This document shows positions 10,522 to 44,197 of a stretch of DNA of 55,002 nucleotides, in pieces; the first letter of the stretch is position 1, and every line of letters starts with the position of its first letter. A model generated the notes under the pieces. The model did no database searches. It was given only the letters and a program-made list of their open reading frames with translations, and was not told where the DNA came from. Source of the DNA: Pirellulales bacterium (GTDB taxonomy: Bacteria > Planctomycetota > Planctomycetia > Pirellulales > Pirellulaceae); the NCBI GenBank assembly GCA_022451045.1, contig JAKUOW010000009.1:1-55002 (forward strand), written 5' to 3'. The translations under genes were made by a program, and so were the position numbers.

Positions 10522-11370
10522 ATGGCATTTTCTTTTGAACATAGTTCACCATCCGATTGTGATCTCGTATTAGACGAGCCGTTCTTATGGATGCTGAAAC
10601 ATGCAGGGGTATTCGGACAACCTCACTGGACTTACAGAGCAACAGTCGGGCCAGCCGCAGACAGGGGAAGCGCAGCAGAAAATGCTGTCATAGAAAAACT
10701 TCACAACAATAAGTCACTCGATGAAGCAATAAATATTTGCCAGAAAGATTTCAGAGAACGCCTTGCGTATCTTAGCGCTGCCAAGATGAACGATGAAGAG
10801 CGGCGAGAGTATGATGACATACCACACTACGTTAGAAATATTTATGCGCTGCTGGACAGTGAGGAGTTTGCATCTCTTGGTTTGGGCGAACTTGTTGATG
10901 CCCAGCACAAACACACTGGCAGCATCCAAACGACCAGAGGCCCAATGGAATGGTGGGGCTTTACTGATTTCAAACATAAAGCAGAATTTGGTGACAATGA
11001 GTTTGCGTATTGGGATCTAAAAACTACACGATCATCGCAGCTTTCGTTCCGTAAATCACATCAGTTACAGCTTGCATACTACGCTGACGCAACCGGATGT
11101 ATGCAACATATTTGTTATGTAAAGCCGGTCTCAAGCACAACAAAGAGCGGTAAGAAAAGCGTCGCCGTGCCATTTAAAGTTTTCACTTTAACAGCAGACC
11201 AAAGAGCCAGTGGAGCTAGCAGACGGAAAGCTGGTGCTGAATATATGATGAGTTTGTATCGAATGGGCTGGGAAGATGCCATGCGTGTCAGCATGCCCCG
11301 CGACATACACGGTTTTCGCTGGGATGACGGCGCAAGAAAAATAGCAAAAGAGATATGGGGGATAACATGA
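10522..11370 (+). CDS. RecB-like PD-(D/E)XK exonuclease
   Basis: 282 residues. ATG 10522 is chosen because GGAGC lies 8 nt upstream; the ATG at 10492 is inside the operator. The protein is a PD-(D/E)XK nuclease of the RecB/Cas4-like type. After an N-terminal region with the sequence DRGSAAENAVIEKL comes GFTDFKHK (metal-binding Asp), then YWDLKTTRSS (Asp-X-Lys) and a Gln/Tyr helix (SHQLQLAYYADA). Such enzymes resect DNA ends to make single strands for an annealase. The very next gene is an ERF-type annealase, overlapping by 4 nt or so, making a Red-like pair. Confidence 0.85.
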   Translation: MAFSFEHSSPSDCDLVLDEPFLWMLKHAGVFGQPHWTYRATVGPAADRGSAAENAVIEKLHNNKSLDEAINICQKDFRERLAYLSAAKMNDEERREYDDIPHYVRNIYALLDSEEFASLGLGELVDAQHKHTGSIQTTRGPMEWWGFTDFKHKAEFGDNEFAYWDLKTTRSSQLSFRKSHQLQLAYYADATGCMQHICYVKPVSSTTKSGKKSVAVPFKVFTLTADQRASGASRRKAGAEYMMSLYRMGWEDAMRVSMPRDIHGFRWDDGARKIAKEIWGIT

Positions 11371-11867
11371 CAGATTTTAGTCCGGCTGCGGTTGATTATG
11401 CAATTGCCAATCAAAGCAAAGCAACAACAGGTGGAGCAGAAATAGCGGCTGCATTAAGCGCAGCGCAGGGAGAAATGACTGAGCCAGCATTTGACGGCAA
11501 GGGGTATCATAAAAACAAATACGCATCGCTTGCTAGCGTTTACAAAGTCACACGACCTATCCTCGCCAAACACGGTCTTGCTGTTGTTCATAACATAGAA
11601 GGCGAACAGCTTGTAACGACGCTGCATCACAGCAGCGGTCAAACAATTGTGCAGCGTTATCCGCTTCACTTTGCACCGATCAAGGAAAAGGACACGCCGC
11701 ATATGGAGCGGCAAAAGACAATCACCTACGCAACCCGCAACAGTCTTTACATGCTCTTAGGTCTTCGAGGTGACGAGGACGAGGGAGAAGGAGAGTTTTT
11801 CGAATTACCCATCGAGCAACCTAAAAGTAACGGCTCGATGATCAGCACCACACCGGATGAATTTTAA
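11367..11867 (+). CDS. erf: ERF family single-strand annealing protein
   Basis: 166 residues from ATG 11367, with GGGGG 6 nt upstream; an ATG 12 nt earlier is in frame but less well placed. Recognised by the ERF pattern: an alanine-rich N-terminal helix, AFDGKGYHKNKYASLASVYKVTRPILAKHGLAVVHN in the core, then Leu-Val-Thr-Thr-Leu-His-His-Ser-Ser-Gly and a YATRNSLYMLLGL segment before an acidic tail. ERF proteins anneal complementary single strands during phage circularisation and repair. It follows the exonuclease in a translationally coupled pair. The Glu-rich C-terminus (DEDEGEGEFFE) may contact partner proteins. Confidence 0.9.
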   Translation: MTDFSPAAVDYAIANQSKATTGGAEIAAALSAAQGEMTEPAFDGKGYHKNKYASLASVYKVTRPILAKHGLAVVHNIEGEQLVTTLHHSSGQTIVQRYPLHFAPIKEKDTPHMERQKTITYATRNSLYMLLGLRGDEDEGEGEFFELPIEQPKSNGSMISTTPDEF

Positions 11868-19700: not shown

Positions 19701-22700
19701 ACACAGCACCGGTATGGTTGGCAGTCACATACTGCAATGCGTCAACGTCGTCACGAAAACCAAGTTGTTGCAGTTCTTCAACATGACCTCTTTGCTTGAC
19801 ATGCCGCTGTCCAAAGCCGCCGATGTCTGCATCTCCTGTGCCGGTCTTGCCAGTAGGGTAGATCACGCGACCTGGCCCAAAATCACCTTGAGCCGCAGCT
19901 CTTAATGCGCGAACATCTTTGGCATTTATCGCTCTGCCGAAAAAAGGTTTTCCGCTTTGATTTGGAACAACGGTTCTTGTATCCAGTGAGAACTCAACGT
20001 CTGGAAATCCAGTGAGGTTGGGATCGACTTCAACAGACGTACCGTAATCAAATGTCTCCATGGCACGATTGAAAACATCTTCAATATCAGCCAATACTTT
20101 TTTAGATCGCGCTGTTTCTTCTGCTGTCAGTTCACTTGTAGGTTTATCAAGAAGCCGCTTGATGGGTTGCCGCATCGCATGTGCTTCTTTATGTACTTTG
20201 CTGATCGGCGCAGGTACAACCTGTAATTCAAGCGAAACAATCTCATTGACTGCTATCTGTGTATGTACTGCCCGATACCCACCTGGCTTTGGATCTAGCA
20301 TGAAGTTGTCAACTTCAAGGTTCATCAATCGATCCATTTGATCAATGACTTTTGAAAGCGCCGTGCCGTCGTCAACGACTATTCTTGCGCCAATGTAATC
20401 AGGCATTGTGCTGGCTGGTCTTCGTTTTTGCGCAACCTTGGCTTGCATGCCAGGGCTGTCTTTCACTCTCGCTTTGGAGAACGATGCCCCAGTAATTGCA
20501 TCCGCAACGTCTGTTAAAAAACTACTCACATCGTCCATCACACGGTTGGCTTCGTTGAGTAAATCAGTTATATTATTTAAACCTTGGAGGTGCGGTTTGC
20601 CCGAAGATTCATCAAAAGAACCCATGGCTACTGATGGCGAAATATTAGCTGGGCCACTGGATATAAACGGTACTCTTTCTCGTTGGCGTGAACGATCCGA
20701 TGGATCAAGCGTTGTCGAAATCTGGGATGGAAACCGGTTTATAACCAGCGACGGCTCCATCACATTGAAAGATTTTTTCCCGCCAGACGTTTGATCTTTC
20801 TGTGCTGGTGTTTCTATAGACGCTTCCATTACATCTGGTAACGGAAACAAATCTTGCTCTGCCGCTGGTGCGGGAGGCTCTTTCTGACGTAACGATCCAA
20901 TAAGAAGCTGTTCCGGTGTTGGCTTGTCACCAATTAAATCTGCACCCGCACTCGTTTTGTTTGCTTCTGTTATATAGTAATCAAGTCTATCTGCGACTGC
21001 TTTTGAAGACGCTGGCTTTGTGAAAGTGTCGTCAGTAAAAAAGGTACGCAACCATCCTCTTTGTATTGGATTCATTTCGCCAGTAAAGGCATCCGTTTGA
21101 TCTACAAATTCTGCAACACTGCGACCTTCATCTTTTGCTCTTCGATAAACATTCAACGCTTCCCGCAGATTATCTGTCGTGTCCATGAATGGATCGATTT
21201 CGTTTCTTTCAGCGGCATTTCTCATCATTGCCCATTTAGATGCACCTTCGCGTAAAGCGTTACCCACTGATTTTCTGGTCGGGTCTGGCGATTCAAAAAA
21301 ATCTGCCACAAGTCTATCGTCTTCGTAGGCATACCGAAAAAGTGCGGCGTCTATGCGTCGGATGCCGTCGATGTTTATGCGGCCCTTCTCGTCCATGTAC
21401 TGCGCACTGTCAGCTTCAGATACAACCTCACCCATGAATGCTCTACGGAAGCCATTGTTAGCCGCAGCGTTTATATCGCCGCCCTGGTACTGTGCAACAA
21501 TCTCCGGTGTCATAGCATCAGCGTCGGAAGCCGCCATTTCTGTGCTGCTCATTCCCAGTGTAGTGCGCATGTTGCTTTCACGAACAAAGTCAGCCCTTGC
21601 GTCTGGACTTGTTGCGGTTCGATTTACGCGAACCAATACCGGATTATTAAATCCTGTTACGTCAAACCCAGCTTCCGAAATAGCGCTTCTATAATTAGCA
21701 TAGGCTTGCGGATTACCCGCAGCGGCTTTACGCAACGCTAATATTCTACCGTTACCAGACTCAACCATGTTGTCTGTGCCAACAACCGGCGCACCTTCAG
21801 CAGACGACGGAGACTTTAAAAGAAACGCAGGGTTCAGTTCTCGTGCTATCTTATTTACTTGCTGTTCGCTTGCGGCTCTCGTTCTATCCCTTGGTTGCAA
21901 TGCAGCAACATAATTTGGATTGACTTGCAAATCATCGGTCTGTGATGGGATGAGATCATTTAACTCTTTGACTTCGTAGGTAACACCGACTTCTGTTCCC
22001 GCTGGTGTAACAATTCTGTCAGTTGGTTCTATGTCAGATATAGGGGCTTCGGGTATCTCTGGAGGTAACGCTGGTTCTTCAACAACAGGCTCCGGTTCTG
22101 GTACAGGTTCTGCCGCGACAGGTTCCGGTTCTGGTGCAGGTTCTGGCGTAGGTGCTGGTTCCGGCTCTACTTGTGGCTCAACAGCCGGTGCTGCTTCTGG
22201 TGTAGCTTGTGCAGTCGTTGGAAACTGTTGCGTAATCTTGCCTTCGGCTGCAAACAACAGTGCCTGTTTCTGCGTCATGCGACCACTCATCTTTGCGATG
22301 ATGCGATCCAGACTATCACTGAAGAAATCAAAGGCTCTGCTTACGACGTTGCGTTTTGCAGGCTTGCCGGTTTGTTTGTAAAGTTCAAGCGCATAGGCTC
22401 TAGCTTCTCTGGGCGTGATGATTGCGCCTTGTTCCTGTAGTGAAGTGTTGTACTGCGCAAGTAGTTTGGGATCGAGTAATCTTTTGACAGCAGGTGACAG
22501 CGCATTGCGGAGTGTGCTTGCTTGTTTGAATCCACTTGACCATGCAGCATGGGCTTTCGGATCTTGCTGTGAAAATATTGTGTCGTGAAAATGCAGCACT
22601 TCGTGAGCCATAGCTGCGCGGGGATTTTGCCGTGGGTCTATTCGTATTTCGTTATTGCTTGCAAAGAATCCACCCTTGGCTTGACGACCACCGACTTCAA

Positions 22701-24030
22701 GACCTTCAGTACTAAAGTTAATAGTTGGATCAAACTCTGCCTTATCATTTATTTCAACAGCATCTTGCAGCGCCGCCATGTTCTGCCGTGTTTGCACCGG
22801 CGATAGATCAAGATCACGCAACTGCTTGGCAGCATCTTGTAGTTTTGGCCGTGCATCTAACTCGTTTATAAACCGATCAAGTTCGCTGGTTGGATCAACA
22901 CCTTCTTCGGCAGCATCAACAATGCGAGGATCTTTTATAGTTGGCGCGGCTGGGGCAGGGGTTGCATCATCAGGTGTTTCTTGTGCAGTTTGCGGCAGAT
23001 CAAACGTAGGATCTTGCTCACCGGCGGGTGACGCAGCCGCTGCATCAGCATCGCGTCGGGAAGTGAGATAACCAACTCCAACTTCGACTGGTGTTCCCAA
23101 TAAGGTTTCTAACGCAACCTCAAGTGCTATATCACCGCGACTTGTAATTCTACCTTCTGATAACAATTGCGCACTTGTTTCACCACCCGCTGCTGTAGCA
23201 GCTTGCAATCCGATTTCACCGCCGACACCAGCTACTCGGCCAGCACCCACGCGAGTCGCAAGACCAAACGCTTTTCCTGCTAGACCCATCGAAAGCGCTT
23301 CAAAGGCAGCAATAGGCACACCGCGCTTTACAGCCTTGTCTCTTGCCAACGCCATAAATTCTGGATCTTGTAGTTTTTCTATAACCTGCTCTTTTGTATC
23401 AGCACCGCTTGCACGAAGTTGTTCAGCCATTACATTGCCGTACTCGATGCCCAATGTTGGAAGAGCCATACCAGCACCAAGACCGACGGCTGTACCAGCA
23501 GGGCCGGTTGTCGAACCAACAATACCGCCAACAATAGAGGACGGTATTGACACTGCCATTTGCGGAATGGTTTCGAGAGTGAGCACACCGGCTGCGCGAG
23601 GATTAGTAATGAACTCACCCAGCGTTTCGAAGAAGCCTTCTGCCTCGTCTATCTCTTGTAGTTGCGCTTGTGTCTCAGGAGAATATGTTGGCCGCTCTTG
23701 TTCTAGTAAACTCTCTGCTAGATCTTCGTCGTCTAATACGCCAAGCTCACGACCAACAACGCTGCCAGCAACACCCAAACGAGCAAGGCCAGATGAAAAG
23801 GCTTTAGATACATCGCTTTCGTCCTCCAAAAATTTTGAAGCAAAGTCAGTTCCGTATACAGGCTTAAAACTATCTATCTTGTCTGGAGTCTCTCGGAGAA
23901 AATTTATCACCTCATCAGTAGGCGTTATGTATTTTGCAGAAGCACCAGCACCAAATGTCTCGTTGAATTTATCAAAAAGAGAGTGATCAGATTTGAGTAG
24001 ATCTATGGCTTCTTGCGTAGGTTCTGCCAT
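16747..24030 (-). CDS. 2427-aa polyvalent virion protein
   Basis: By far the largest gene. Regions in order: charged N-terminus; two glycine/alanine-rich amphipathic stretches (155-200, 235-320) that could interact with membrane; a zincin-like segment with HEVLH at 476-480; a Pro-Glu-rich hinge (610-660); a ddrB-type ParB-like domain (about 675-870, ESGNGRILALRKA at 757-769); a RelA/SpoT-like nucleotidyltransferase domain (about 1150-1290: DYIGARIVVDD, then DNFMLDPKPGGYRAVHTQI); a possible PBECR-like nuclease (about 1365-1500, GGFGQRHVKQRG); and a long helical C-terminus with an LPD38-like part (about 1990-2240, VPFLNARAQGGYS). This domain mix is that of polyvalent proteins, which are ejected with the phage genome to act in the host. 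Placement among internal virion genes supports that role. Confidence 0.85.
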   Translation of the reverse strand: MAEPTQEAIDLLKSDHSLFDKFNETFGAGASAKYITPTDEVINFLRETPDKIDSFKPVYGTDFASKFLEDESDVSKAFSSGLARLGVAGSVVGRELGVLDDEDLAESLLEQERPTYSPETQAQLQEIDEAEGFFETLGEFITNPRAAGVLTLETIPQMAVSIPSSIVGGIVGSTTGPAGTAVGLGAGMALPTLGIEYGNVMAEQLRASGADTKEQVIEKLQDPEFMALARDKAVKRGVPIAAFEALSMGLAGKAFGLATRVGAGRVAGVGGEIGLQAATAAGGETSAQLLSEGRITSRGDIALEVALETLLGTPVEVGVGYLTSRRDADAAAASPAGEQDPTFDLPQTAQETPDDATPAPAAPTIKDPRIVDAAEEGVDPTSELDRFINELDARPKLQDAAKQLRDLDLSPVQTRQNMAALQDAVEINDKAEFDPTINFSTEGLEVGGRQAKGGFFASNNEIRIDPRQNPRAAMAHEVLHFHDTIFSQQDPKAHAAWSSGFKQASTLRNALSPAVKRLLDPKLLAQYNTSLQEQGAIITPREARAYALELYKQTGKPAKRNVVSRAFDFFSDSLDRIIAKMSGRMTQKQALLFAAEGKITQQFPTTAQATPEAAPAVEPQVEPEPAPTPEPAPEPEPVAAEPVPEPEPVVEEPALPPEIPEAPISDIEPTDRIVTPAGTEVGVTYEVKELNDLIPSQTDDLQVNPNYVAALQPRDRTRAASEQQVNKIARELNPAFLLKSPSSAEGAPVVGTDNMVESGNGRILALRKAAAGNPQAYANYRSAISEAGFDVTGFNNPVLVRVNRTATSPDARADFVRESNMRTTLGMSSTEMAASDADAMTPEIVAQYQGGDINAAANNGFRRAFMGEVVSEADSAQYMDEKGRINIDGIRRIDAALFRYAYEDDRLVADFFESPDPTRKSVGNALREGASKWAMMRNAAERNEIDPFMDTTDNLREALNVYRRAKDEGRSVAEFVDQTDAFTGEMNPIQRGWLRTFFTDDTFTKPASSKAVADRLDYYITEANKTSAGADLIGDKPTPEQLLIGSLRQKEPPAPAAEQDLFPLPDVMEASIETPAQKDQTSGGKKSFNVMEPSLVINRFPSQISTTLDPSDRSRQRERVPFISSGPANISPSVAMGSFDESSGKPHLQGLNNITDLLNEANRVMDDVSSFLTDVADAITGASFSKARVKDSPGMQAKVAQKRRPASTMPDYIGARIVVDDGTALSKVIDQMDRLMNLEVDNFMLDPKPGGYRAVHTQIAVNEIVSLELQVVPAPISKVHKEAHAMRQPIKRLLDKPTSELTAEETARSKKVLADIEDVFNRAMETFDYGTSVEVDPNLTGFPDVEFSLDTRTVVPNQSGKPFFGRAINAKDVRALRAAAQGDFGPGRVIYPTGKTGTGDADIGGFGQRHVKQRGHVEELQQLGFRDDVDALQYVTANHTGAVSVPDARGNKIKGRLEATKRVAGKEYRIHALVTPVVDPRTRNTYYATVTIYSPDLAQREKKTVDPVVRNVEFSMNVDNDIMAAADKVHSRDNGSSFRLLGYMKDKFTGFKNGNWITQIFDRYYPVNQLERERFGGVLPDADKSAYKMMRLANDVSGTVSYFLNNGQARYTNQGFEVLPEKKSLLKIIEPIVKEYGDDGLHLFGAYAYAVRANRLLADKRESVLSQGEISTLLDLGRQYPLFEQARKEYVEFNDNIVQVAVDSQVLSQEQADTWRSFGDYVPFYRILDPDSRIVTPPSVGGIGTVGSPSRRLFGGESKINNILDNMVKNTEYLLGKSLKNRGMQLMVENFGPDTGMDVFKKVPSSFASASKVTPDGIRQTLIRALGDDHPLVNETRNIEGLQTIFTMEPIMRKPAQNVVYVRRIREVEDADGNMVEQHGTDYFEVNDQNLFAALSELPPKSMGAFMDFMNTSRTFFSRMITMMPDFMLANLMRDTMATRALRGGYNPLTGVFRGLQRSLSDDAVMQELRVNGGMAIGGFYGNDLRRFKKVTGSKTNPIIAAPANAWALWDKVGQATEQANRLSVYNSSRERGVGGFESAFQSRDIIDYSLSGKHQAVQLLIRTVPFLNARAQGGYSLARGLNRKNRKNFLLMSTLYAGAATALYAMNYDDERYREESQVSKDLYLHMYLDKFIPREALESVGITNPHIAIPKPFELGAVSMTVPERLMEQIIDKEADGEDFVKTMGFILGGIFKIDPGEVAGPYIKGVYQDIILKDLFRGRDLVPAHQRQFVGKEGEADATITDRTPQSIAAIARQLDMAPQRVQAYADAWFPKVGSMVLQAADMVMRSANGMPPLPEEFNDTIFGRFTVGRFVPSEFPGYSASEQELRELNAQLKAYRQGIRNQEKFRNPERYRELVDAVGDQAMLSKPVSDTVKRLNEISALERQIRDFSNLPLEEKRKQLEKLKKQRAELSRKTLKAVDSIKD

Positions 24031-34249: not shown

Positions 34250-36244
34250 TTAAGATAGTCCACCATGTGCGTTAGAAGTACCACCTGCTTGTCCAGCACC
34301 CCATGTTAAATCACCCCAATCAGCAGCGTCACCTGTACTAGCAATGGTAATTTTATCTACGTTGTATGATGATCCACTGTAATTGTGGAATACTCCTATT
34401 GTAGAAGCAGAAAGTCCTGTAGCATAATTATAAGATCCTGATCCTGTTGCATCACCGAAATCTGTACCATTGCCAGTTGAGGCGATAGTAACATACTGCA
34501 TTACGTTACTAGATCTACCTCCAGAACCCATGACAGCTCTAGTGTTGCTACTTACCATACCAACACTAAAATTGGTTTCAATAAGATCTCCAAAATCTGT
34601 ACCGTTGCCTGTTGAAGCAATGGTGATATATTCAATTACATCAGTATAACTACCTGATGGTTGACCACCTGCAAATATACCTCTTGTAGTGCCTGCTACA
34701 CCTGCCAAGTATTGATTTGTTATAGTTAGATCCCCAAAGTCTGTGGCGTTTCCTGCGGAAGCAATGGTAAAATAATCTATTGTATTTGACTGTGTACCTT
34801 CACCCCCTGCTGTACCTGCTTTTCCAAGAGCAACTACACCTCTAGTAGAATTACTTAATGCTCCACCAAATACACTACCACTTGTTAAATTGCCAAAGTC
34901 TGTAACTGCACCTTTAGTTGAAAAAGTATTATATTCAAGCTCATTTGTTACAGTATAATTAGGTGATCCTCCTATTCTAGTAATTCCTCTAGTAGAACTA
35001 GCTGCTGTACCTAAAGCTAACCGTGACGATTTTGCACTCAATTCTCCAAACATACCACTCTGACCATCAGTAGTTATGTTTAGAAATATTACAGCCGTTT
35101 GATAACCAGCACTATTTATACCGTCACCACCAGCAAGTAATCCTATAGCAGCAGGGGGAAAACCTGCTTCGTTTTGTACTGCTGCATGACTAGAAGCATT
35201 TGCAGAACCTGATCTACTTACGGCAGATAAATCTCCAAAATCAGTTGCATCTCCAGTAGTAGAAAATGTTATTGTTTCTATTGTATTTACAGCAGCAGAA
35301 CCAGTATAACCTCCAAGAATAAAACCCTTGGTAGAACTAGATGCACCCATTAAAAATGCTTTAGCTACTGTCATATCTCCAAAGTCTGTCACATTTCCTG
35401 TACTAGCAATCGTTACATACTCTAAAGTATTTCTAAATGAACCCCCACCACCAGAACCACCTGCAATAACTGCTCTTGTATTTGATGACGTAAAACCTAA
35501 CTCATCTGTAGAAGCAGACATATCACCAAAGTCTGTAGAATTACCAGTACTAGCAATAGTCACATATTGAATTACATTTGATAGAGCAGCAGGAGTATAA
35601 CCACCAGAAGCTAATCCTCTAGTAGTAGAACCACTCATACCATTGCCTTGTCTATGCCTTGCTGAATTAGAACTATCAACGGACAGATCACCAAAATCTA
35701 TGGCATTACCAGTTGATGCTATAGTTAAGTACTCTATTGAGTTACTTAAATTACCATTACTATAGAGCCTTCCCCCAAAAGTAATTCCTCTGACATTATT
35801 AGAAGCAGAAGCATTTGCATCAGATGTTGTTGCAGCTACATCACCAAAGTCAGTTGCATTACCAGTTGTAGTGTAAGTTATATAATCAATTACATTACTA
35901 CGTGAACTACCACCGTAATTATCCCAACCACCTGCAAATATTGCTCTTGTGTCATTACCCATAGATGATGATGCGTGTCTTGCTACAGTTAAATCACCAA
36001 AGTCTGTAGCATTTCCAGCAGATTCAGGTACAAATTTATCTATGTCTGTTACTAATGGGTTTACTTGTCCTCTTGTAGCTATACCAACACTAGGAACATT
36101 CGTGGGATCAGGCCAATCACCTGCCTGACCAAATATCAGTGGATCATGTATATTCCACACACCAGATGCAGTTGCATTTGAAAGATTGCTAGATGGCTCA
36201 ACAGGGCTTGAAGATATTATGGAGCCTAAATATCGTTCAGTCAT
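34250..36244 (-). CDS. Kelch-like 12-repeat protein 1 (664 aa)
   Basis: Twelve copies of a repeat of about 50 residues whose core is T-I-A-S-T-G-N-A-T-D-F-G-D followed about 15-20 residues later by T-R-(A/G)-x-x-x-G-G. The diglycine after hydrophobic residues is kelch-like and suggests beta-propeller blades. Repeats 6 and 7 are separated by a linker carrying QNEAGFPPAAIGLLAGG, and repeat 7 is degenerate (GQSGMFGE). The first 70 residues have an SGVWNIHDPL segment resembling virion anchors. The end is NAHGGLS. Its start overlaps the stop of protein 2 (TAATG). Likely a surface or receptor-binding protein. Confidence 0.75.
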   Translation of the reverse strand: MTERYLGSIISSSPVEPSSNLSNATASGVWNIHDPLIFGQAGDWPDPTNVPSVGIATRGQVNPLVTDIDKFVPESAGNATDFGDLTVARHASSSMGNDTRAIFAGGWDNYGGSSRSNVIDYITYTTTGNATDFGDVAATTSDANASASNNVRGITFGGRLYSNGNLSNSIEYLTIASTGNAIDFGDLSVDSSNSARHRQGNGMSGSTTRGLASGGYTPAALSNVIQYVTIASTGNSTDFGDMSASTDELGFTSSNTRAVIAGGSGGGGSFRNTLEYVTIASTGNVTDFGDMTVAKAFLMGASSSTKGFILGGYTGSAAVNTIETITFSTTGDATDFGDLSAVSRSGSANASSHAAVQNEAGFPPAAIGLLAGGDGINSAGYQTAVIFLNITTDGQSGMFGELSAKSSRLALGTAASSTRGITRIGGSPNYTVTNELEYNTFSTKGAVTDFGNLTSGSVFGGALSNSTRGVVALGKAGTAGGEGTQSNTIDYFTIASAGNATDFGDLTITNQYLAGVAGTTRGIFAGGQPSGSYTDVIEYITIASTGNGTDFGDLIETNFSVGMVSSNTRAVMGSGGRSSNVMQYVTIASTGNGTDFGDATGSGSYNYATGLSASTIGVFHNYSGSSYNVDKITIASTGDAADWGDLTWGAGQAGGTSNAHGGLS

Positions 36245-38127
36245 TACGATAGTCCTCCATGTCCATTAGATTGTCCTGATCCACCACTTGGAGCAAGTAA
36301 ATCTCCAAAGTCTGTGGAGTTACCTGTAGACGCTATTGTAAATTGTTGAATTACGTCTGAACTTGCACTGGCAACGTAGTCGTACCCACCAAGAACTAAT
36401 GCTCTAGTAGAATTACTAAAAGCACCTCCTTGTGTCCATTTAGCTAAAAGATCTCCAAAGTCCGTTGCGTTACCAGTACTCGCTGTAGTCAAATACTGTA
36501 ATCTGTTCAAACCATCTGAACCGTCAAAACCACCACAATGAACAACTCTAGTATTATTAGAAGTTGCCACACCAAAACCATTGTTTTCTAACAGATCGCC
36601 AAAATCTGTGGTATTACCTGTTGATGAAATAGTCACATATCCTATTTGATCGGTGTAACCACCTCCTCCCTGTCGCCCACCCATAAATAACATTCTAGTT
36701 GGGCTTCCAGCTATTCCAGGAGTTTCTAATGCTTCTACAAGATTTCCAAAATCAGTAGCGTTACCAGCACTAGCAATCGTAATATAATCTATTGTGTCAA
36801 CTCTAGAACCACCACTGTCTTTACCACCACCATATATTCCTCGTGTACTATTTGATGCACCTACTGTTATTCTAGTAACTGTAAGATCTCCAAAGTCAGT
36901 ACCAAGTCCTCTTGTAGCAAAAATTGTAAGGTCTATATTGTTTTTATATCCACTATATAATCCACCTGCTACACACATTCTAGTTGCACTTGCTGCACCA
37001 CCGTATCCACCATTTATACTTGTGTAACTTATATCTCCAAACTCAACAGAATTACCAGCAGATGCTATGTCAATAGACTCTATGAAACTGCCTAATGATT
37101 GCACCATCAACCCAGTATTACCTGCTGATGGTAAAGCTGGTAATGCATCTACTGATGGGCTAAACGGAGAAGCAGCACCATTGTAAGAAAAGTATGTTCC
37201 ACCATATGTTTGCAGTGTTCCGAAATCAGTGGCATTACCAGCAGACGCTATTGTAATTTTTTGGTTAGTTCCTGATGCTCCTGCATTATCACCTACAAGT
37301 ATTCCAATGATGCCGTTACTTACCCCTGCACCTCTAGCACCTTGAGCCTGATCTAAATCTCCGAAATCTGTTGCGTTTCCAAATGTCGGTATGGTTATAA
37401 ACTCAATTACGTTTAAGTGAGAAGAGCCATTATATCCACCGTAAATTACAGATCTTGTTTCACTATTTATGCCTCCTCCATGACCATAAATACTATTTGA
37501 CGTATCTCCAAAATCTCTAGCAGTGCCTGTTGAAGCGACTGTCACATAGTCAATTACATTTACAGCAGCACTGCCCCAAGCATATCCAGCAAACCATAAA
37601 GCTCTTGTTGTGTTTCCTCCTCCTTCACAAGCGTTTCTATTGGTTGATAAGTCTCCAAAATCACTAGCGTTTCCAGCAGAGGCTATAGTATAGTAGTCGA
37701 TAGTTTTATTTACTGTATTAACACCATCAGCAGTATTAAAACCAGCTACAAGTCCTCTAGTATCACTACTATGTGATCCATAACCTATGGCTGCAACAGT
37801 TGCGTCACCAAAGTCTGTAGCATTTCCTAATGTTGCGTGTTCTATATAATCTACTACGTTTACAACTCCACTAGCACCATATCCTCCAGAAAACACTGCT
37901 CTAGTAGTAGATCCAAATCCAGCAGCATCATATCTTGCTACTGTTAAATCACCTTGATCAGCACCATTACCATTATTAAAATCTATAGTCTGTGTGTGTG
38001 CTACCGTGCCTACACCACCACCTATAAAAGCACCACCAAGAAGAGCATTTACAGGTGGGCCAGGAAAAGCAGAACTATACTGATACTTTGTCTGTAGTTT
38101 CCAAACGCCTGAGAATGATGGAGCCAT
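36244..38127 (-). CDS. Kelch-like 12-repeat protein 2 (627 aa)
   Basis: Same architecture as its neighbours: a short N-terminus with FSGVWKLQTKY, twelve GNATDFGD-type repeats, and the end NGHGGLS. Repeat 1 is degenerate (NGNGADQGD), and repeat 7 (GNSVEFGD) again follows a linker at the same place (ALPSAGNTGLMVQSLG). It lacks the QNEAGFPP segment of proteins 1 and 3. Tandem duplication is clear from the order and overlap of the three genes. A virion appendage is probable. Confidence 0.75.
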   Translation of the reverse strand: MAPSFSGVWKLQTKYQYSSAFPGPPVNALLGGAFIGGGVGTVAHTQTIDFNNGNGADQGDLTVARYDAAGFGSTTRAVFSGGYGASGVVNVVDYIEHATLGNATDFGDATVAAIGYGSHSSDTRGLVAGFNTADGVNTVNKTIDYYTIASAGNASDFGDLSTNRNACEGGGNTTRALWFAGYAWGSAAVNVIDYVTVASTGTARDFGDTSNSIYGHGGGINSETRSVIYGGYNGSSHLNVIEFITIPTFGNATDFGDLDQAQGARGAGVSNGIIGILVGDNAGASGTNQKITIASAGNATDFGTLQTYGGTYFSYNGAASPFSPSVDALPALPSAGNTGLMVQSLGSFIESIDIASAGNSVEFGDISYTSINGGYGGAASATRMCVAGGLYSGYKNNIDLTIFATRGLGTDFGDLTVTRITVGASNSTRGIYGGGKDSGGSRVDTIDYITIASAGNATDFGNLVEALETPGIAGSPTRMLFMGGRQGGGGYTDQIGYVTISSTGNTTDFGDLLENNGFGVATSNNTRVVHCGGFDGSDGLNRLQYLTTASTGNATDFGDLLAKWTQGGAFSNSTRALVLGGYDYVASASSDVIQQFTIASTGNSTDFGDLLAPSGGSGQSNGHGGLS

Positions 38128-40241
38128 TACGATATACCTCCATGTGAGTTTGATGCTTTACCACCAAAATTACCTTGACAGGTTGTGTCACCAAAGTCTT
38201 GAGCATTGCCAGTGGAAGCTATGGTCACATAATCCATCACCATACTGGTGCTGTCTCCACTGTTAAACACGGCTCTTGTGCTTGAAGATAACGCTTTTAA
38301 ACCTGCTCTAGTAGCTGTTAAATCTCCAAAATCTGTTGCGTTGCTTGTAGAAGCAATAGTCAAGTATTCTATAATATTAACATTATTTCCTGCACCATCC
38401 ATTCCACCACCTACAACCATTCTTGTGTTTGAAGATGCTGCTCCAAGATAACCTCTCGTACCAGAAAGATCTCCGAAGTCTGTAGAGTCACCAGTTGAGG
38501 CAATAGTTACATAATCAATAACATTTGTTCTAGTGCTAGAATTAATTCCACCTGCTGTTATTCCTCTAGTTGTATTTGCACTTGACGCATTATAATAGTT
38601 ACTTTCTGTTCTATCCCCAAAATCTGTAGCGTTACCAGCAGAAGCAATAGTTATGTAATCCATAGTATTTACTAAAGAAGTACCACCAGAAAAATTTGTA
38701 TCTCCACCACTAAATATACCTCTGGTAGAGTTTGATAAAGCAGAATACGCTACTCGTAGTTGAGAAGAATCTCCAAAATCTGTAGCTTTTCCTTTTGTGC
38801 TGAAAGTAAGATGCTCGATTATATTTGATTTTGAATTACCGCTTCTAAGATAATGTGCGCCAAACACTGCTCTAGTAGAAGACGCTACACCATCAAAAGA
38901 TTCTGACTTTTCAATAAGGTCTCCAAATATAATACTGTTACCTGTTGTTGCTATATCGATATATTCTACGGTAGATTGGCTTCCACCAGAAGCTAGGTTA
39001 GTATAACCACCAGCAAATAGACCCATAGCTGATGGAGGAAATCCAGCTTCGTTTTGTACTGCTGCTTCATCAGAACAGTGACCACCTATTTTTTGTGATG
39101 CAACTCCTCTAAGATCCCCAAAATCTGTCGCATTGCCAGTGGATGCTATGGTAATATAATCAATTACATTTTGATTTTGTCCACCAGCAAATACACCTCT
39201 AGTAGACGTTGCTGCTCCAGCAGGATCATACAATCTTGCTACGGTGAGATCTCCGAAATCTTGAGCGTTACCTGTAGATGCTATGGTTACATAATCCATA
39301 ACATTACTAGTAGTTCCAAGACCACCGCCCCACACACCTCTAGTAGAACTAGATAAAGCACCACAAGTACGAGCTACTGTAAGATCACCAAAATCTGTGG
39401 AATTTCCAGCAGTCGCTATAGTAAAATAGTCTATAACATCAGTGAATTGGGTGGTATAACCACCACCATGAATAGCCCTAGTTGATGAACCACAAGCACC
39501 CCCATAACCTTTAGCAGCAGATAAATTGCCAAAGTCTGTTGAATTGCCAGTTGAGGGTATCGTGACATATTCAACTTTATTTACATTACCACCACTAGTA
39601 AATCCACCAAAATGCATACTTCTTACATTATTAGATGTAGAAGTTGCGTATCCTCTATCTTCAGATATATCGCCAAAGTCTGTGGCGTTGCCTAATGACG
39701 CCATCGTTACATAACTTATAATATTTGAATACCCACCAGATTTGTAACCCTCATAAAACAAAGCCCTTGTGTCAGATCCAGAAGCTGCTGAAAACATGGC
39801 ATCATCTATCGTATCACCAAAATCAGCAGCATCACCTGTTGTTGTGACGGTTATGTAATTTATTTCTTTATTAGCACCTCCACCTGAACTAGATTTCATT
39901 CCTATAAATAAAGCTCTAGCTAATACAGGAGTAAAACTATCAGTAGCATCAGATAGTGGGCCATTACCGTAGTCATTGATCGCCCATACCTGTGCTGTGT
40001 AGCTAGTGCCGTTTGAAAGGCCAGTCACAGTAATAGGAGAAGATGACGCAGTGCCATTAAATGTATTTGTTCCATCTGTTACTCTGGCTGCATATTCGGT
40101 AATAGGATCATCACCAACATCAGAAGGCCCAGTAAATGCTACTGATACTTGCGTAGAAGCAGCAGTAGCTGTACCTATTGTTGGAGCATCAGGTACACTA
40201 AGATTGTCCTGACCACCTACGAATCCACCTCTGCGTGTCAT
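38127..40241 (-). CDS. Kelch-like 12-repeat protein 3 with FnIII domain (704 aa)
   Basis: The first about 95 residues are a fibronectin type III domain (SVPDAPTIGTATAASTQVSV, then GTSYTAQVWAINDYGNGPLS). This is followed by twelve GNATDFGD-type repeats, with linker QNEAGFPPSAMGLFAGG between repeats 6 and 7, degenerate repeat 7 (GNSIIFGD) and the shared end NSHGGIS. FnIII domains on phage tails are thought to bind carbohydrate on the cell surface. Of the three paralogues it alone carries the FnIII domain and it is the first transcribed. Confidence 0.78.
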   Translation of the reverse strand: MTRRGGFVGGQDNLSVPDAPTIGTATAASTQVSVAFTGPSDVGDDPITEYAARVTDGTNTFNGTASSSPITVTGLSNGTSYTAQVWAINDYGNGPLSDATDSFTPVLARALFIGMKSSSGGGANKEINYITVTTTGDAADFGDTIDDAMFSAASGSDTRALFYEGYKSGGYSNIISYVTMASLGNATDFGDISEDRGYATSTSNNVRSMHFGGFTSGGNVNKVEYVTIPSTGNSTDFGNLSAAKGYGGACGSSTRAIHGGGYTTQFTDVIDYFTIATAGNSTDFGDLTVARTCGALSSSTRGVWGGGLGTTSNVMDYVTIASTGNAQDFGDLTVARLYDPAGAATSTRGVFAGGQNQNVIDYITIASTGNATDFGDLRGVASQKIGGHCSDEAAVQNEAGFPPSAMGLFAGGYTNLASGGSQSTVEYIDIATTGNSIIFGDLIEKSESFDGVASSTRAVFGAHYLRSGNSKSNIIEHLTFSTKGKATDFGDSSQLRVAYSALSNSTRGIFSGGDTNFSGGTSLVNTMDYITIASAGNATDFGDRTESNYYNASSANTTRGITAGGINSSTRTNVIDYVTIASTGDSTDFGDLSGTRGYLGAASSNTRMVVGGGMDGAGNNVNIIEYLTIASTSNATDFGDLTATRAGLKALSSSTRAVFNSGDSTSMVMDYVTIASTGNAQDFGDTTCQGNFGGKASNSHGGIS

Positions 40242-40253
40242 CGGCTGCTCCTA

Positions 40254-40616
40254 CTAAGCGTCGTCTATTTCCTCATACGAAAGAACAGCACTTAGATCGC
40301 CAGCCGCACTTGCTTGTACTTTGAGTATATCGCTTTCGTTGAGATACAGACCCATGTTTTTGTCCAACGCAACCAACGTTGCATCAGCGGGAACAGAGAC
40401 TGTTTTTAATAAATAATGATCAGTAGAACTTCTTGTTATAAAAACATCAACTGACGCCGCATTTGTGCCATCGATATTCGCTATCACTAACGAGTTTATC
40501 TTGCACAGTTTGTCAGATGCACAAGTTAAAAGAGACACCGCTGAGGTAGAGATGTTATCTTCCAAAACCGTTTTCGCAAGAATTGATGTTACTGCTACTA
40601 CATTAGGATTTGCCAT
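40254..40616 (-). CDS. Small beta-rich virion protein, 120 aa
   Basis: ATG 40616 with AAGGAAATAAAAA upstream. Beta strands with SLVIANIDGTNAASVDVFITR and ESDILKVQASAAGDLSAVLSYEE. This looks like a small jelly-roll cap or fibre accessory protein, and the Gly/Asn-rich turns and length fit proteins that accompany tail fibres in marine podoviruses. Function inferred from composition and position only. Confidence 0.6.
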   Translation of the reverse strand: MANPNVVAVTSILAKTVLEDNISTSAVSLLTCASDKLCKINSLVIANIDGTNAASVDVFITRSSTDHYLLKTVSVPADATLVALDKNMGLYLNESDILKVQASAAGDLSAVLSYEEIDDA

Positions 40617-40634: not shown

Positions 40635-42638
40635 CTAACCAAAAACCATCGCCATAGCGATTGCTTTTCCAGTACTTGCCTTCGTATTGAGTTGGGTTTG
40701 AATTGCAGATGTCACCCCATTGACATGCCCTAGTTCAGCGGCAGTGGTTGATAGACTAGCAAGTTTATTAATTTCAGCCGCAGAAGCAGTAATAGAAGTT
40801 CCTGCTATTTGTAAGGTTGTCGCGTTTACTTCGCCACTTGATCCGTAGATTACAGCTTTACTATTTACAATTGTTCCTGCGCTTGAGCCGTCCACTAAAT
40901 TAAGTTCAGCACCAGTTGAGGTAACTGCCGTACCGCCGTAATTTAAATTGGAGGCTCCAATGTTTACTTCGCCTGTGCCTTTTGGTGTGAGATCAATGTC
41001 CACATTCGAGTCGCTACCGAATGCACCCAACACAATTGCATTGCCTGTCGCGCTGTTGGTGACCTCAAGTGCATTGACGGCAGATGAAGTTGTTTGGAAC
41101 ACAACCATCTCATTGCCATTTGCGTCAGCTACAAATCCGGCATCGGCAAACTTCGGTTCAGTAAGTGTTTTGTTGCTCAAAGTTTGTGTTGCTGATGTAC
41201 CAACTAGTTCTTGGTTACTGCCAGCAGGTAGTGTCAAGACGTTTGTTACACCCGCACTGTGTGCTTGCGCAATAATTGTTTGACCATGCGAGTTGTTTTC
41301 ACAATTTAAAACCAAAGATCCTTGATTGTCATTACCTTTGACAACAACTTTTCCTGTTCCGTTTGGTGCGAGTTCAATGTCGGCATTCGATGTGGTGACA
41401 ATATCATTGCCATTCATATCCAAGTTACCGCCAAGCTGTGGTGTTGAGTCTTCGACGACGTTGGAGATAGCACCCGAAGTTGCAAGACCAGCAACGACTG
41501 CACTTCTTTGTATCTTTTTCAGTCCACCGCCAGAGGTATCTATTGCAAGAAACAAATCATCGTTAGCAACTGTAGATATTTCAGATAGAGATCCAACAGA
41601 AACTGACTCAAAGTTTGTGCCGTCTGCTACAAGGATATTGTGCTGAGTGCTGTTACTCAACTGTAAATCAGAAGAAGCAAAAGCGCTACTGTCTAATGCG
41701 GCGGCTTGCCACGCACTTCCTGTATAAACCTCCAACACATTGTTTGAGGTGTTGAAATAAAGATCTCCTGCCTGGAGGCTGGAACTGTCAGATCTAGCTG
41801 ACGGATCTGAACTAGCCGCGCCATGGTAAACGAGATTAAAACTTGTTACGTCTGTTACTTTTGACGCCACAGAAGATACAGCAGACTGTATACCTGCCAC
41901 CGTGGATATATTGTTTGTTGGGCTAATTTGTCCGGCTACGGTATCAATATTTGTTTTTGCACCGGCCACCAAATTTACGTTGGTTTCATTATCGGCTACA
42001 CTGGTAATATTACTGGCGAGTGGTTCCGCAACAACAGCCGCGATATTTGTGACCGAATTAGCAGCCGCATTTATATTACTGGCATTCGCGGCCACAGATG
42101 AAACCGCTGCATTTATGGAACTTACTTGGGTGATATTGGCTTCGTTGGTATTTACGCCTTTTATCGCAGCAATGTTTGCAGCTATGGAAGAAAGTGTGCC
42201 GTTGTTTACTTGCGTTACCGTATCAGCAAGCGACGATCCCAGTAATGTCGTAATGACATTGTTGCCATCGCAGTAGACAATATCTTTACCGAAAGCAATC
42301 TCCACGGCAGAGCCGGATGATGTTTTGATAAAGACAGCAAACTCATTGCCGGTCTTGTTGTTTATAAAATATGTTTTCTGCGCATTCGGTATCACGACAT
42401 TTCTGATGCCGGTAAGTGTACCTGTTAGTTCGAGCACCGCATGTCGCGCTTCGTCTGCCACAAAGTTTGTTGAAGTAAGTGTAATGTCTCCCGCACCGCC
42501 AATGTCTTTTGAAAGAACACCCGCAACTGCATCTTCAACCAAGGTTAAATTGATGTCAGTATATGTTCCCCAAAGGCTGTCATTGCCGCCTGATTCCTGA
42601 TCTCTAAGTCGTAGTATCGGGGTAGCTGAATCTGCCAT
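40635..42638 (-). CDS. Tail fibre-like protein, 667 aa
   Basis: The N-terminal 130 residues form a domain beginning PILRLRDQESGGNDSLWG with VVIPNAQKTYFINNKTGNEF. This is the N-terminal pattern I associate with podoviral fibre/head-fibre proteins that attach to the virion. Residues 130-260 are heptad-like with repeated Asn-Ile-(Ala/Thr) units. The rest is Ser/Ala/Thr-rich with beta-structured repeats (NGTGKVVVKGN, GTGEVNIG) as in trimeric fibres. No cleavable intramolecular chaperone motif is seen. It probably recognises or contacts the host. Confidence 0.75.
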   Translation of the reverse strand: MADSATPILRLRDQESGGNDSLWGTYTDINLTLVEDAVAGVLSKDIGGAGDITLTSTNFVADEARHAVLELTGTLTGIRNVVIPNAQKTYFINNKTGNEFAVFIKTSSGSAVEIAFGKDIVYCDGNNVITTLLGSSLADTVTQVNNGTLSSIAANIAAIKGVNTNEANITQVSSINAAVSSVAANASNINAAANSVTNIAAVVAEPLASNITSVADNETNVNLVAGAKTNIDTVAGQISPTNNISTVAGIQSAVSSVASKVTDVTSFNLVYHGAASSDPSARSDSSSLQAGDLYFNTSNNVLEVYTGSAWQAAALDSSAFASSDLQLSNSTQHNILVADGTNFESVSVGSLSEISTVANDDLFLAIDTSGGGLKKIQRSAVVAGLATSGAISNVVEDSTPQLGGNLDMNGNDIVTTSNADIELAPNGTGKVVVKGNDNQGSLVLNCENNSHGQTIIAQAHSAGVTNVLTLPAGSNQELVGTSATQTLSNKTLTEPKFADAGFVADANGNEMVVFQTTSSAVNALEVTNSATGNAIVLGAFGSDSNVDIDLTPKGTGEVNIGASNLNYGGTAVTSTGAELNLVDGSSAGTIVNSKAVIYGSSGEVNATTLQIAGTSITASAAEINKLASLSTTAAELGHVNGVTSAIQTQLNTKASTGKAIAMAMVFG

Positions 42639-43255
42639 TATGTACTCGCCACGTTATCATTTGTTATTTGTTGTCTTGCATAACGCCGGTTAATACCGAC
42701 AAGCGCTCTCTCGTAATACTGTCCGTACATCGCTGCCGCTTCTGGATTTTTGACATACAGTGCGCCATGATGCAGACAGCAATACAACAAAAGCTGATAG
42801 GCATTCGTTGTGTAAAAGTTCGTTGTGTTTCCTGTCGATAGTCTTGGTAATCTCTGCGTAAAACCAATCTCATAAGTGAGTGCAGCAGAAGGTGAGGGGG
42901 CTATCAAAAAATTATCAGCATCGTATTCGCCAAAATATTTCGGTGTGCCGGTATCACTGGTGCTGCTGAAAAACTCTCGCAGAAATGTAAGTTCTCTTCG
43001 CTCAAGCTGTATAAGTGTAGTACCGCTGGTGATTTGGAAATATCGGATGCCTCTTTCATTAGTCGGTTTGTTTACCGTATCGTCACCAATTGAAAGCGAT
43101 CCTGTTTCTTTTGCAAAAAACGCATCTTCAGTTACTTCATCCGCAAGCTGGTCTTCCGCATTCTCGATGATCTGATCAAGCTGCGCTGTCAACTCGCTAC
43201 TGTTATTATCTAGGAAGTCAGAGATGTCTGTTTTAAGTGTCGTAAAGTTTGCCAT
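42638..43255 (-). CDS. Head-tail adaptor-like protein, 205 aa
   Basis: TAATG overlap with the fibre gene. The N-terminus is a helical acidic region (FLDNNSSELTAQLDQIIENAEDQL). The rest is beta-rich: RGIRYFQIT, then LERRELTFLREFF and an aromatic C-terminal helix (YCCLHHGALYVKN). The sequence pattern resembles gp6/adaptor-type proteins of marine podoviruses (phage structural protein of the DUF6682-like type). Position next to a second adaptor-like gene supports a connector role. Family assignment is tentative. Confidence 0.65.
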   Translation of the reverse strand: MANFTTLKTDISDFLDNNSSELTAQLDQIIENAEDQLADEVTEDAFFAKETGSLSIGDDTVNKPTNERGIRYFQITSGTTLIQLERRELTFLREFFSSTSDTGTPKYFGEYDADNFLIAPSPSAALTYEIGFTQRLPRLSTGNTTNFYTTNAYQLLLYCCLHHGALYVKNPEAAAMYGQYYERALVGINRRYARQQITNDNVAST

Positions 43256-43527
43256 CAGACGTTATCCGTTCCACCGCCAGCGGTATTAGGAAAAAGCGTT
43301 GTGATGCTGGTAACAGTACCCACAGAAAAACCGTCAGTAGGTCTTGGATCTTTCAAAGCCATTGCATCGTGAATGCCTTTGGCCGGTGTCAGTTGAGGGT
43401 GCTTGTCTTCAAACGCTTCGGGAGAAACACGCTGCCCCTTCCAGTTTGTTCGAAGTTTCCGATAAGGAACCCTGACACCTGTGATGTCACAATAACCGTA
43501 TGAATATTTACCCGCTGCGTACCGCAA
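43255..43527 (-). CDS. Small conserved neck/head protein, 90 aa
   Basis: Starts with TTG 43527 inside the end of the upstream gene; no ATG fits. It opens RYAAGKYSYGYCDITGVRVPY, then WKGQRVSPEAFEDKHPQL and KDPRPTDG. I recognise this opening (YxYGxCDxTGxRxPYxxL) from small phage proteins near head-tail genes. The Cys and His content is low, so it is not a zinc ribbon. Function unknown. Coupled to both neighbours by overlaps. Confidence 0.7.
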   Translation of the reverse strand: MRYAAGKYSYGYCDITGVRVPYRKLRTNWKGQRVSPEAFEDKHPQLTPAKGIHDAMALKDPRPTDGFSVGTVTSITTLFPNTAGGGTDNV

Positions 43528-44197
43528 AACCAGTTCCCGCCAAATTTGGAGTTAAGAAAAGCGATGCTCGTTCTTCGTCTTCTTGTATTGCACGGAGAAC
43601 TTCTTCATCGTAGCGCGATTTAAATAACGCGGTTTTGGCGGCGTCAACTTTTTCACTTAGGTAAAAAGCTAAACCGGTTGTGACTGCCGGTAAAAACTTT
43701 ACCGGAACGTCAAGTGTGTTGGTATATGCACCAACGTCTTCGATGCGATTATACGCATAATAGTTAATTTTGTATACCTTGTCCGGCGTTGTGTAGAGGA
43801 AGAGTATCGGCGCATCGCGCTCTCTGTCCAGGTAGTATTGTGAAGGTCTTGCTTCCGTCGTTTTGTTGGGCAGGGCTGCATAATCACTCTGCGTCAGCCT
43901 TGCGACGGAAATCTCACTTCCGGTTGTACCGTCTGCATGAACGGTTACGTCAGATACATCAAGCACCGCGCCAGACAGCGTGTAACTTGTCTGTGACGCA
44001 ACCGTATTAAATGTTGATTGTGCTCTTTTGAAAAGATGCAGATCTCTATTGTTTAGATCCGCAAGCAGTAAGTTGAGAGAGCGTCGAGCACTGCGCAGTT
44101 GTTGACCTGTTGGGCTGGGAACCGCACAACGCTCATACGCTTCAATAATCAACTCATCAACACTAAGGTTGAAAGAGGTTGTGCCAGAAGTCGCCAT
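43508..44197 (-). CDS. P22 gp4-like head-completion/adaptor protein, 229 aa
   Basis: ATG 44197. It opens TTSFNLSVDELIIEAYERC, then LLLADLNNRDLHLFKR and a beta-rich centre. The C-terminus is helical with LAFYLSEKV, RYDEEVLRAIQEDEER. The helical N-terminus plus central sheet and C-terminal helix is the layout of gp4-like adaptors, which bind beneath the portal and complete the neck. This fits its position among virion genes, but the assignment rests on pattern and context. Confidence 0.68.
   Translation of the reverse strand: MATSGTTSFNLSVDELIIEAYERCAVPSPTGQQLRSARRSLNLLLADLNNRDLHLFKRAQSTFNTVASQTSYTLSGAVLDVSDVTVHADGTTGSEISVARLTQSDYAALPNKTTEARPSQYYLDRERDAPILFLYTTPDKVYKINYYAYNRIEDVGAYTNTLDVPVKFLPAVTTGLAFYLSEKVDAAKTALFKSRYDEEVLRAIQEDEERASLFLTPNLAGTGFAVRSG

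Follow-up and report, generated by a model that had tools for sequence, protein, structure and literature searches.

The stretch of DNA analysed here, referred to below as the window, comprises 55,002 nucleotides (nt) and is the entire contig JAKUOW010000009.1 of a 4.59 Mb genome bin classified in the Pirellulaceae (GCA_022451045.1). Its gene content is that of a temperate tailed phage: the window encodes a terminase, a portal protein, a major head protein and a primase-helicase, and also an integrase, an S24-like repressor, an ERF recombinase, ArdA and lysozyme. The subject of this work is an array of three genes, A, B and C, that encode the proteins P0003, P0002 and P0001. Within the block of virion genes the array lies just downstream of the fibre gene, in the order P0005 (tail fibre), P0004, A, B and C (Table 1).

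Repeat architecture and predicted fold

A regular expression for the GNATDFGD-type motif located 12 repeats in P0001, 12 in P0002 and 11 in P0003; the motif missed in P0003 is GNSIIFGD at residue 434, which brings the true count to twelve in each protein. The repeats are spaced by 45-55 residues, except between repeats 6 and 7, where the spacing is 63, 61 and 65 residues in the three proteins. Repeat 7 reads GQSGMFGE in P0001, GNSVEFGD in P0002 and GNSIIFGD in P0003, and the chains end in NAHGGLS, NGHGGLS and NSHGGIS, respectively. Only P0003 carries a fibronectin type III (FN3) domain, with 34.8 bits against a Pfam gathering score of 25. The motif scan confirms the initial annotation of the locus, which had described twelve repeats per protein, a linker between repeats 6 and 7, an altered repeat 7 and an N-x-HGG(L/I)S end, and the restriction of PF00041 to P0003 agrees with its single FnIII-bearing member. 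Relatives were collected by scans with P0003, with an alignment of 37 proteins from the window and relatives (A1) and with P0001, which gave 73, 9 and 38 loci (120 in total, numbered L below, some sharing one contig). A hidden Markov model of the repeat unit recovers this architecture from over 100 related loci, which places the repeat pattern far beyond chance.

An AlphaFold2 model of P0003 was built from A1. Its mean predicted local distance difference test score (pLDDT) is 81, with most of the propeller region between 75 and 93, and each half contains 24 main strands, corresponding to six blades of four. In VIA alignments the second domain superimposes on 7onc with a Z score of 38.0 over 278 aligned residues and 2.0 Å. 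Residues 405-698 align as an entire domain, in one register, to residues 326-609 of Keap1 (5wfv_A; Z 37.2, about 2 Å), and the domain aligns similarly to KLHL12 (Z 37.1, about 2 Å; Foldseek E-value 1.7e-18) and, as a whole, to the designed protein SAKe6 (Z 37-38). A Kelch-type six-bladed fold is well supported by this modelling. The initial annotation had read the repeats as two six-bladed, Kelch-like propellers per chain and had suggested structure prediction of one paralogue as a check; the two 24-strand propeller domains of the P0003 model, the fold match in the PDB and the 6/12/18 rule in relatives (below) all speak for that reading.

In our own mapping onto the model, strand A of a blade would correspond to TVAR..., strand B to TRGVFAGG, strand C to NVIDYVTIAS and strand D to GNATDFGDL. 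Each half runs from strand B to a final strand A (..SNxHGGxS), so that the ring would be closed by the C-terminal strand; the Keap1 ring is likewise closed in this way. Six four-stranded blades, a diglycine after strand B and the apparent closure by a C-terminal strand A are thus shared with the Kelch propellers of Keap1, KLHL12 and SAKe6. Unlike Kelch families, the family carries several propellers per chain, is arranged in a phage array and lacks profile matches: Pfam detects no Kelch model in P0001-P0003 or in any of the 37 members of A1 at an E-value of 0.1, NCBIfam and PDB sequence-profile searches give no Kelch match to the propeller family, and the PHROG matches of P0001-P0003 are all of unknown function. 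Among 1722 blades, the positions of the diglycine at the end of strand B (model positions 13-14) are occupied by Gly in 82% and 90%, position 26 by Tyr in 70%, and position 38, the later aromatic, by Phe in 94% and Trp in 1%. The Kelch consensus has a conserved Tyr and a conserved Trp, with a shorter spacing to the later aromatic than in these blades; its Trp stands where the family has the Phe of DFGD, and the C-D hairpin of the family is longer.

In the same set of blades the D hairpin and the diglycine are nearly invariant; variation is highest mainly at positions 15-21, in the B-C loop that follows the diglycine, and at 43-48, where strand A begins on the D-A side. The equivalent variable loops make up the peptide-binding face of Keap1. 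This variability fits a binding role of the propellers, short of a demonstration of binding. The propellers could instead be enzymes rather than passive binders, for example capsule depolymerases, and PMC11448410 reports six-bladed propeller depolymerase domains in Klebsiella phages. The conserved blade positions (G, F and D of the GNATDFGD hairpin, the diglycine and the Arg of TR) appear structural, however, and no single conserved catalytic site seems to recur from repeat to repeat. We regard an enzymatic function as quite unlikely.

Propeller numbers and exchange of whole propellers

The D motif was tallied in 239 complete open reading frames (ORFs) from the 120 loci, with identical proteins counted once. 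Six motifs are present in 139 ORFs, 12 in 57 and 18 in 2 (198/239), and counts of 7-9 or 13-17 do not occur in this set. Differing counts in relatives had been named in the initial annotation as evidence against its reading; the counts do vary, but by multiples of six. The 41 off-rule ORFs comprise 28 that fall into 14 pairs of neighbours with a joint count of 6 or 12, two at L120, and 11 left over, seven of which have five detected units. Overlaps of 103 and 76 nt suggest frameshifts in the pairs at L006 and L103, and L120 can be read either way; none of the three was counted as a split propeller.

The 12 split pairs share the same break point, at model positions 14-21 in the B-C loop directly after the diglycine, and partition the blades as 1+5, 2+4, 3+3 or 4+2, with the second ORF beginning at most 18 nt from the first. 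They represent about eight distinct split propellers: those of L020, L022 and L048 are copies of one, as are those of L064 and L107, and probably those of L047 and one of L057. If their two parts assemble, these would be natural two-chain propellers. Split propellers with repeats that add up to six are located at L020:7102-8061 (ORFs 7102-7515 and 7519-8061), L048:6720-7682, L047:1644-2755, L057:3427-8832, L064:6001-7202, L065:4612-7098, L067:5992-7202, L091:5680-6887 and L127:6827-7782. Separately, the single-propeller genes L007:5187-6224, L009:6706-7740, L017:7206-8168 and L019:9089-10132 stop near the linker of two-propeller relatives (..AVQ..); the DNA past the stops of L009 and L017 still resembles an old HGG end, which suggests the loss of one whole propeller.

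Random propeller pairs share 40.7 ± 4.6% identity (99th percentile, 51.3). Blades were compared after a prefilter of at least eight shared 5-mers that skipped 5-mers present in more than 120 blades, so that weak sharing could escape. All six blades are related in each of the 33 between-locus propeller pairs that have at least one blade at 80% identity or above; the blade pairs at this level are in register in 149/149 cases, and none of them joins two propellers of one locus. Recombination of single repeats was considered and rejected, as neither pairs with a few shared blades and a background rest nor register-shifted blades were found. The recombination between repeats proposed in the initial annotation thus gives way to a larger unit, the whole six-bladed propeller, and its description of a modular set stands, given the cross-class matches, the turnover of heads and the tags with other heads described below. 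Exchange by whole propellers is well supported at the sequence level, and would explain how a closed-ring protein recombines without breakage of its fold.

In 12 of the 15 two-propeller pairs listed, one propeller is highly similar and the other is at background, and which of the two differs between pairs. P0003 and gene A of L001, for instance, share 84% identity in propeller 1 and 42-50% per blade, the family background, in propeller 2. Propeller 1 of P0001 is 79% identical to the class B propeller 1 of L091, L092 and L093 (blades 54, 94, 81, 88, 87 and 70%) and 48% identical to its best C-class relative. Eight of the 32 propeller pairs at 70-97% identity link different gene classes, in at least four separate cases: L045 B with L042 A (94%), L008 B2 with L003 A2 (88%), L006 A1 with C1 of L007, L010 and L017 (81-88%) and window C1 with L091 B1 (79%). 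Propellers in the same slot are often at background identity, which is also compatible with vertical divergence and saturation, one propeller changing fast and the other slowly with no recombination. The cross-class cases, in which a whole propeller has its best match in another gene class while its own slot is at background, largely contradict this account, and the conserved propeller of the two changes from pair to pair; purely vertical descent is hardly credible. Where P0004 is 95-100% identical, same-slot propeller 1 falls below 55% in 54/63 (A), 18/24 (B) and 11/13 (C) locus pairs, so the heads turn over faster than the backbone.

The DNA of the tags and gene junctions is about 70-97% identical (up to 97% over 95 nt), and at such conserved junctions assemblers err; short-read assembly could thus have joined coexisting variants into an apparent mosaic. 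The exchanged propellers have, however, diverged since: window C and L091 B share 186 identical codons and differ by 56 silent changes and 45 amino-acid differences or gaps, and the silent differences in exchanged stretches argue against assembly chimeras. The mixed contexts of one exchanged propeller moreover appear repeatedly, in contigs from separate samples (L091, L092, L093 and L002), and an artefact of assembly is very unlikely. Judged from its conservation, the tag and junction DNA could act as recombination arms for the exchange of whole propellers. According to PMC3945230, members of the ERF group recombine diverged sequences efficiently, and relaxed homologous recombination produces mosaics. 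The window shares with those phages a temperate genome encoding ERF, and its ERF recombinase is a candidate driver of head exchange in the array. Diversity-generating retroelements act by point hypermutation, in contrast to whole-propeller exchange, and no reverse transcriptase was found among the window proteins run against PHROGs or Pfam, which do not include every ORF.

N-terminal tags and gene junctions

Each gene class has its own N-terminal tag: GGFIG...VPDAPT in gene A, followed by FN3 in the window, SGVWxL...WP in gene B and RYLGxII...GVW...WP in gene C. Across loci, tagged neighbours occur as AB (31), BC (27) and BB (2) and in no other order. The number of propellers per gene is 1-3 in A, 1-2 in B and 1-2 in C. 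The array had initially been taken for a triplicated gene; plain duplication does not hold, since the genes have their own tags, a fixed order and separate propeller histories.

Propellers are missing from 12 of the 108 tagged ORFs. Six of these were submitted to Pfam, of which five contain DUF7483 (one also LamG) and one Gly_rich_2, a glycine-rich family. P0001 and the DUF7483 protein of L006 show no significant similarity beyond the first 48 residues. The sequence context hints that DUF7483, a domain of unknown function, may have a part in host binding. Two proteins of the isolate DSL-LC04 that have a tag of this kind bear glycine-rich and LamG heads. DUF7483 heads on a gene C-type tag are found at L006:10017-11354, L008:7131-9200, L041:5827-7866 and L045:8141-10780.

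Adjacent ORFs of the array share a single base (TAATG), and the GGAGG found nine bases ahead of the next start is part of the HGG codons. Genes A and B use GGA-GG, whereas gene C, the last, encodes HGG as CAT GGT GGA and has no GGAGG. The first 73 loci and the window together supplied 164 distinct ORF ends, and the 110 of these that have HGG were scored as coupled if an ATG lies within nine bases. HGG is encoded as GGR-GGN (first Gly GGA or GGG) in 68/78 coupled and 9/32 uncoupled ends (p 3e-9). At tight TAATG or TGATG overlaps the proportion is 58/60, the two exceptions having GGAGG in a C-terminal extension, and among internal GG pairs of the same proteins 490/1255 begin GGAGG or GGGGG. The coupling signals are thus present at these junctions, where the HGG end would also provide the Shine-Dalgarno sequence for the gene that follows and the genes would be translationally coupled.

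Ten coupled ends lack GGR-GGN. Six of them (L025 and L039) carry GGAGG in a C-terminal GGF extension, and at the other four the next array gene begins 20-26 nt further on. The uncoupled end of L029:2536-4437 does have GGAGG, and the next gene there may begin with GTG. Clades with the ribosome site past the stop codon (L037 and L049) have no HGG end. The HGG residues are kept in last genes, which indicates that the motif serves the protein too.

Table 1. Positions of the array genes, their parts and associated genes in the window
Feature	Position	Strand	Remarks
Gene A (P0003, 704 residues)	38127..40241	-	N-terminal tag 'RRGGFVGGQDNLSVPDAPT', FN3, two predicted six-bladed propellers
FN3 domain of gene A, residues 19-100	39942..40187	-	PF00041, E 1.9e-8
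Gene A propeller 1, residues ~109-393	39063..39917	-	84% identity to L001 gene A propeller 1
Gene A propeller 2, residues ~404-700	38142..39032	-	domain aligned to Kelch structures
GGAGG (Shine-Dalgarno) in gene A HGG codons	38137..38141	-	9 nt before gene B ATG
Gene B (P0002, 627 residues)	36244..38127	-	tag 'MAPSFSGVWKLQTKYQYSSAFPGPP', two predicted propellers
Gene B propeller 1 (approximate)	37192..38046	-	nearest is B propeller 1 of L007/L010, 68-69%
Gene B propeller 2 (approximate)	36247..37116	-	nearest is B propeller 2 of L009, 67%
GGAGG in gene B HGG codons	36254..36258	-	9 nt before gene C ATG
Gene C (P0001, 664 residues)	34250..36244	-	48-residue tag, two predicted propellers; last gene of the array
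Gene C N-terminal tag, residues 1-48	36101..36244	-	73% identity to the tag of the L006 DUF7483 protein
Exchanged DNA segment in gene C	35174..36054	-	propeller 1 minus approximately its first strand; 86% DNA identity to class B propeller 1 of L091/L092/L093
Gene C propeller 2 (approximate)	34253..35149	-	
P0004, 120-residue jelly-roll protein	40254..40616	-	directly upstream of gene A; proposed hub
P0005, tail fibre protein	40635..42638	-	C-terminus GKAIAMAMVFG
ERF-family recombinase	11355..11867	+	PF04404, E 3.4e-8

Proposed position on the virion and phage context

Homologues of P0004 occur in 60 loci (some sharing one contig) and in isolates, Pelagibacter phage HTVC033P among them, and lie directly upstream of gene A in ABC loci. 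In four isolates the homologue directly follows a gene that is annotated as fibre or has a fibre-like end (GKAIAMAIVFG, GKSIAMAMIFGF or similar), and several of the genes after it carry annotations as tail fibre, collar, lectin or C1q. P0004 is modelled as a jelly roll (pLDDT 91), which weakly matches the tail-needle knob of Sf6 as well as phage cement and turret proteins.

We consider it likely that the array is a three-socket set of fibre-tip adhesins with exchangeable propeller heads. Three virion adhesins would dock near the tip of the tail fibre P0005, each by its own short N-terminal tag, through or beside the small hub protein P0004. Each would show one to three Kelch-type propellers (two in the window), the variable loops of which would bind a molecule on the host surface. 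While the sockets (tags, hub and flanking DNA) are conserved, the heads are replaced as whole propellers or by other folds, in this reading through recombination at the conserved DNA of gene junctions and propeller ends, possibly aided by the ERF recombinase of the phage. The C-terminal HGG, on the ring-closing strand, would also encode the ribosome-binding site of the next gene.

Both receptor binding by the propellers and their location near the fibre tip are what we infer from this arrangement; the main rival is a position on the capsid, with P0004 as a cement or turret protein and the propeller proteins as head fibres with a loose affinity for surfaces or particles. The P0004 model indeed resembles KHP40 cement and HFTV1 turret (Z 9.0 and 9.2), besides the Sf6 knob, but a Z near 9 is weak for the jelly-roll fold class. 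In the window and in the four isolates, P0004 or its homologue comes immediately after a fibre or fibre-like gene, and in two of these isolates lectin, tail fibre or tail collar annotations come next. Decoration of the capsid therefore appears improbable.

Several points weigh against the fibre-tip adhesin set. Besides the resemblance of P0004 to capsid proteins, the PDB alignment covers the second domain of P0003 only, the first resting on its 24 strands and equal repeats, and the predicted template modelling score (pTM) of 0.51 leaves the relative placement of the domains unfixed. The relatives are mostly metagenomic contigs, and locus pairs are phylogenetically non-independent. A clear propeller relative is absent from isolates in the collection of 50,697 records: P0003 gave no match at an E-value of 1e-5 and seven weak ones at 10, and an L037 protein retrieved no propeller relative. 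An L025 protein retrieved 132 records; among the 15 matches listed, 13 correspond to a 40-residue N-terminal stretch, and the remaining two, covering 230 residues, are from S-SKS1, a weak isolate match to the propellers (30% identity at E 2e-3). A 45-residue tag query, which was too short, retrieved its own record only.

The adhesin set may be one instance of a general three-socket display at the fibre tip in short-tailed marine phages, an extension that we put forward tentatively. Tags A, B and C would take heads of any fold (one to three propellers, DUF7483, glycine-rich or LamG), which would be transferred whole from socket to socket and from genome to genome, the head ends containing both the recombination arms and the ribosome sites; some heads would be two-chain split propellers completing a six-bladed ring. 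Metagenomes so far reveal little about the ways in which uncultured marine phages alter their host recognition, as the binding proteins lack annotation; the tags, the conserved neighbour P0004 and the countable head unit make such arrays recognisable from sequence.

Exchangeable fibre tips are known already. T-even gp38 is an exchangeable fibre-tip adhesin, encoded by a small partner gene beside the fibre gene, in which the part that binds varies and the part that attaches is conserved; the window differs in its three adhesins, distinct tags and propeller heads, and in the jelly-roll protein between fibre and heads. A six-bladed propeller in a host-recognition protein, as proposed here, is described in PMC11448410 for Klebsiella phage depolymerases, whereas the window propellers are Kelch-like and arrayed, and show no catalytic signature. 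Kelch domains in phages are also known: the protein CBB_552 with a Kelch domain was found in the virion of the jumbo phage vB_PcaM_CBB (PMC5259590), and BFVD lists a Kelch-domain protein in BcepSaruman. The jumbo-phage proteins have InterPro Kelch signatures, and the accessible part of PMC5259590 describes neither a three-tag array nor whole-propeller exchange. A literature search, which covered few subscription journals and leaves absence unproven, found no paper on such a propeller array.

The portal and terminase of the window are nearest to those of Roseobacter, Pelagibacter, gammaproteobacterial and unclassified phages, at about 38-46% identity, and the window reads as an uncultured marine phage. 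Among 199 genomes of the family of the bin, the array is present in the bin alone, and the GC content of the window is 0.455 against 0.48-0.50 in two other stretches of the bin. Relatives of the array were also found in an Epulopiscium single-cell assembly (L082) and in metagenome-assembled genomes of Thermoprotei (L087) and Maricaulis (L083); these are more likely phage contigs swept into the assemblies than host genes. Elsewhere in the window, two neighbouring genes for SU10-type adaptor proteins (42638-43255 and 43508-44197; PF24175, E 2.4e-19 and 2e-12) form an apparent duplication, and positions 16747-24030 encode a polyvalent protein of 2427 residues with ParB-like, RelA/SpoT and LPD38 domains, which is perhaps injected together with the DNA.

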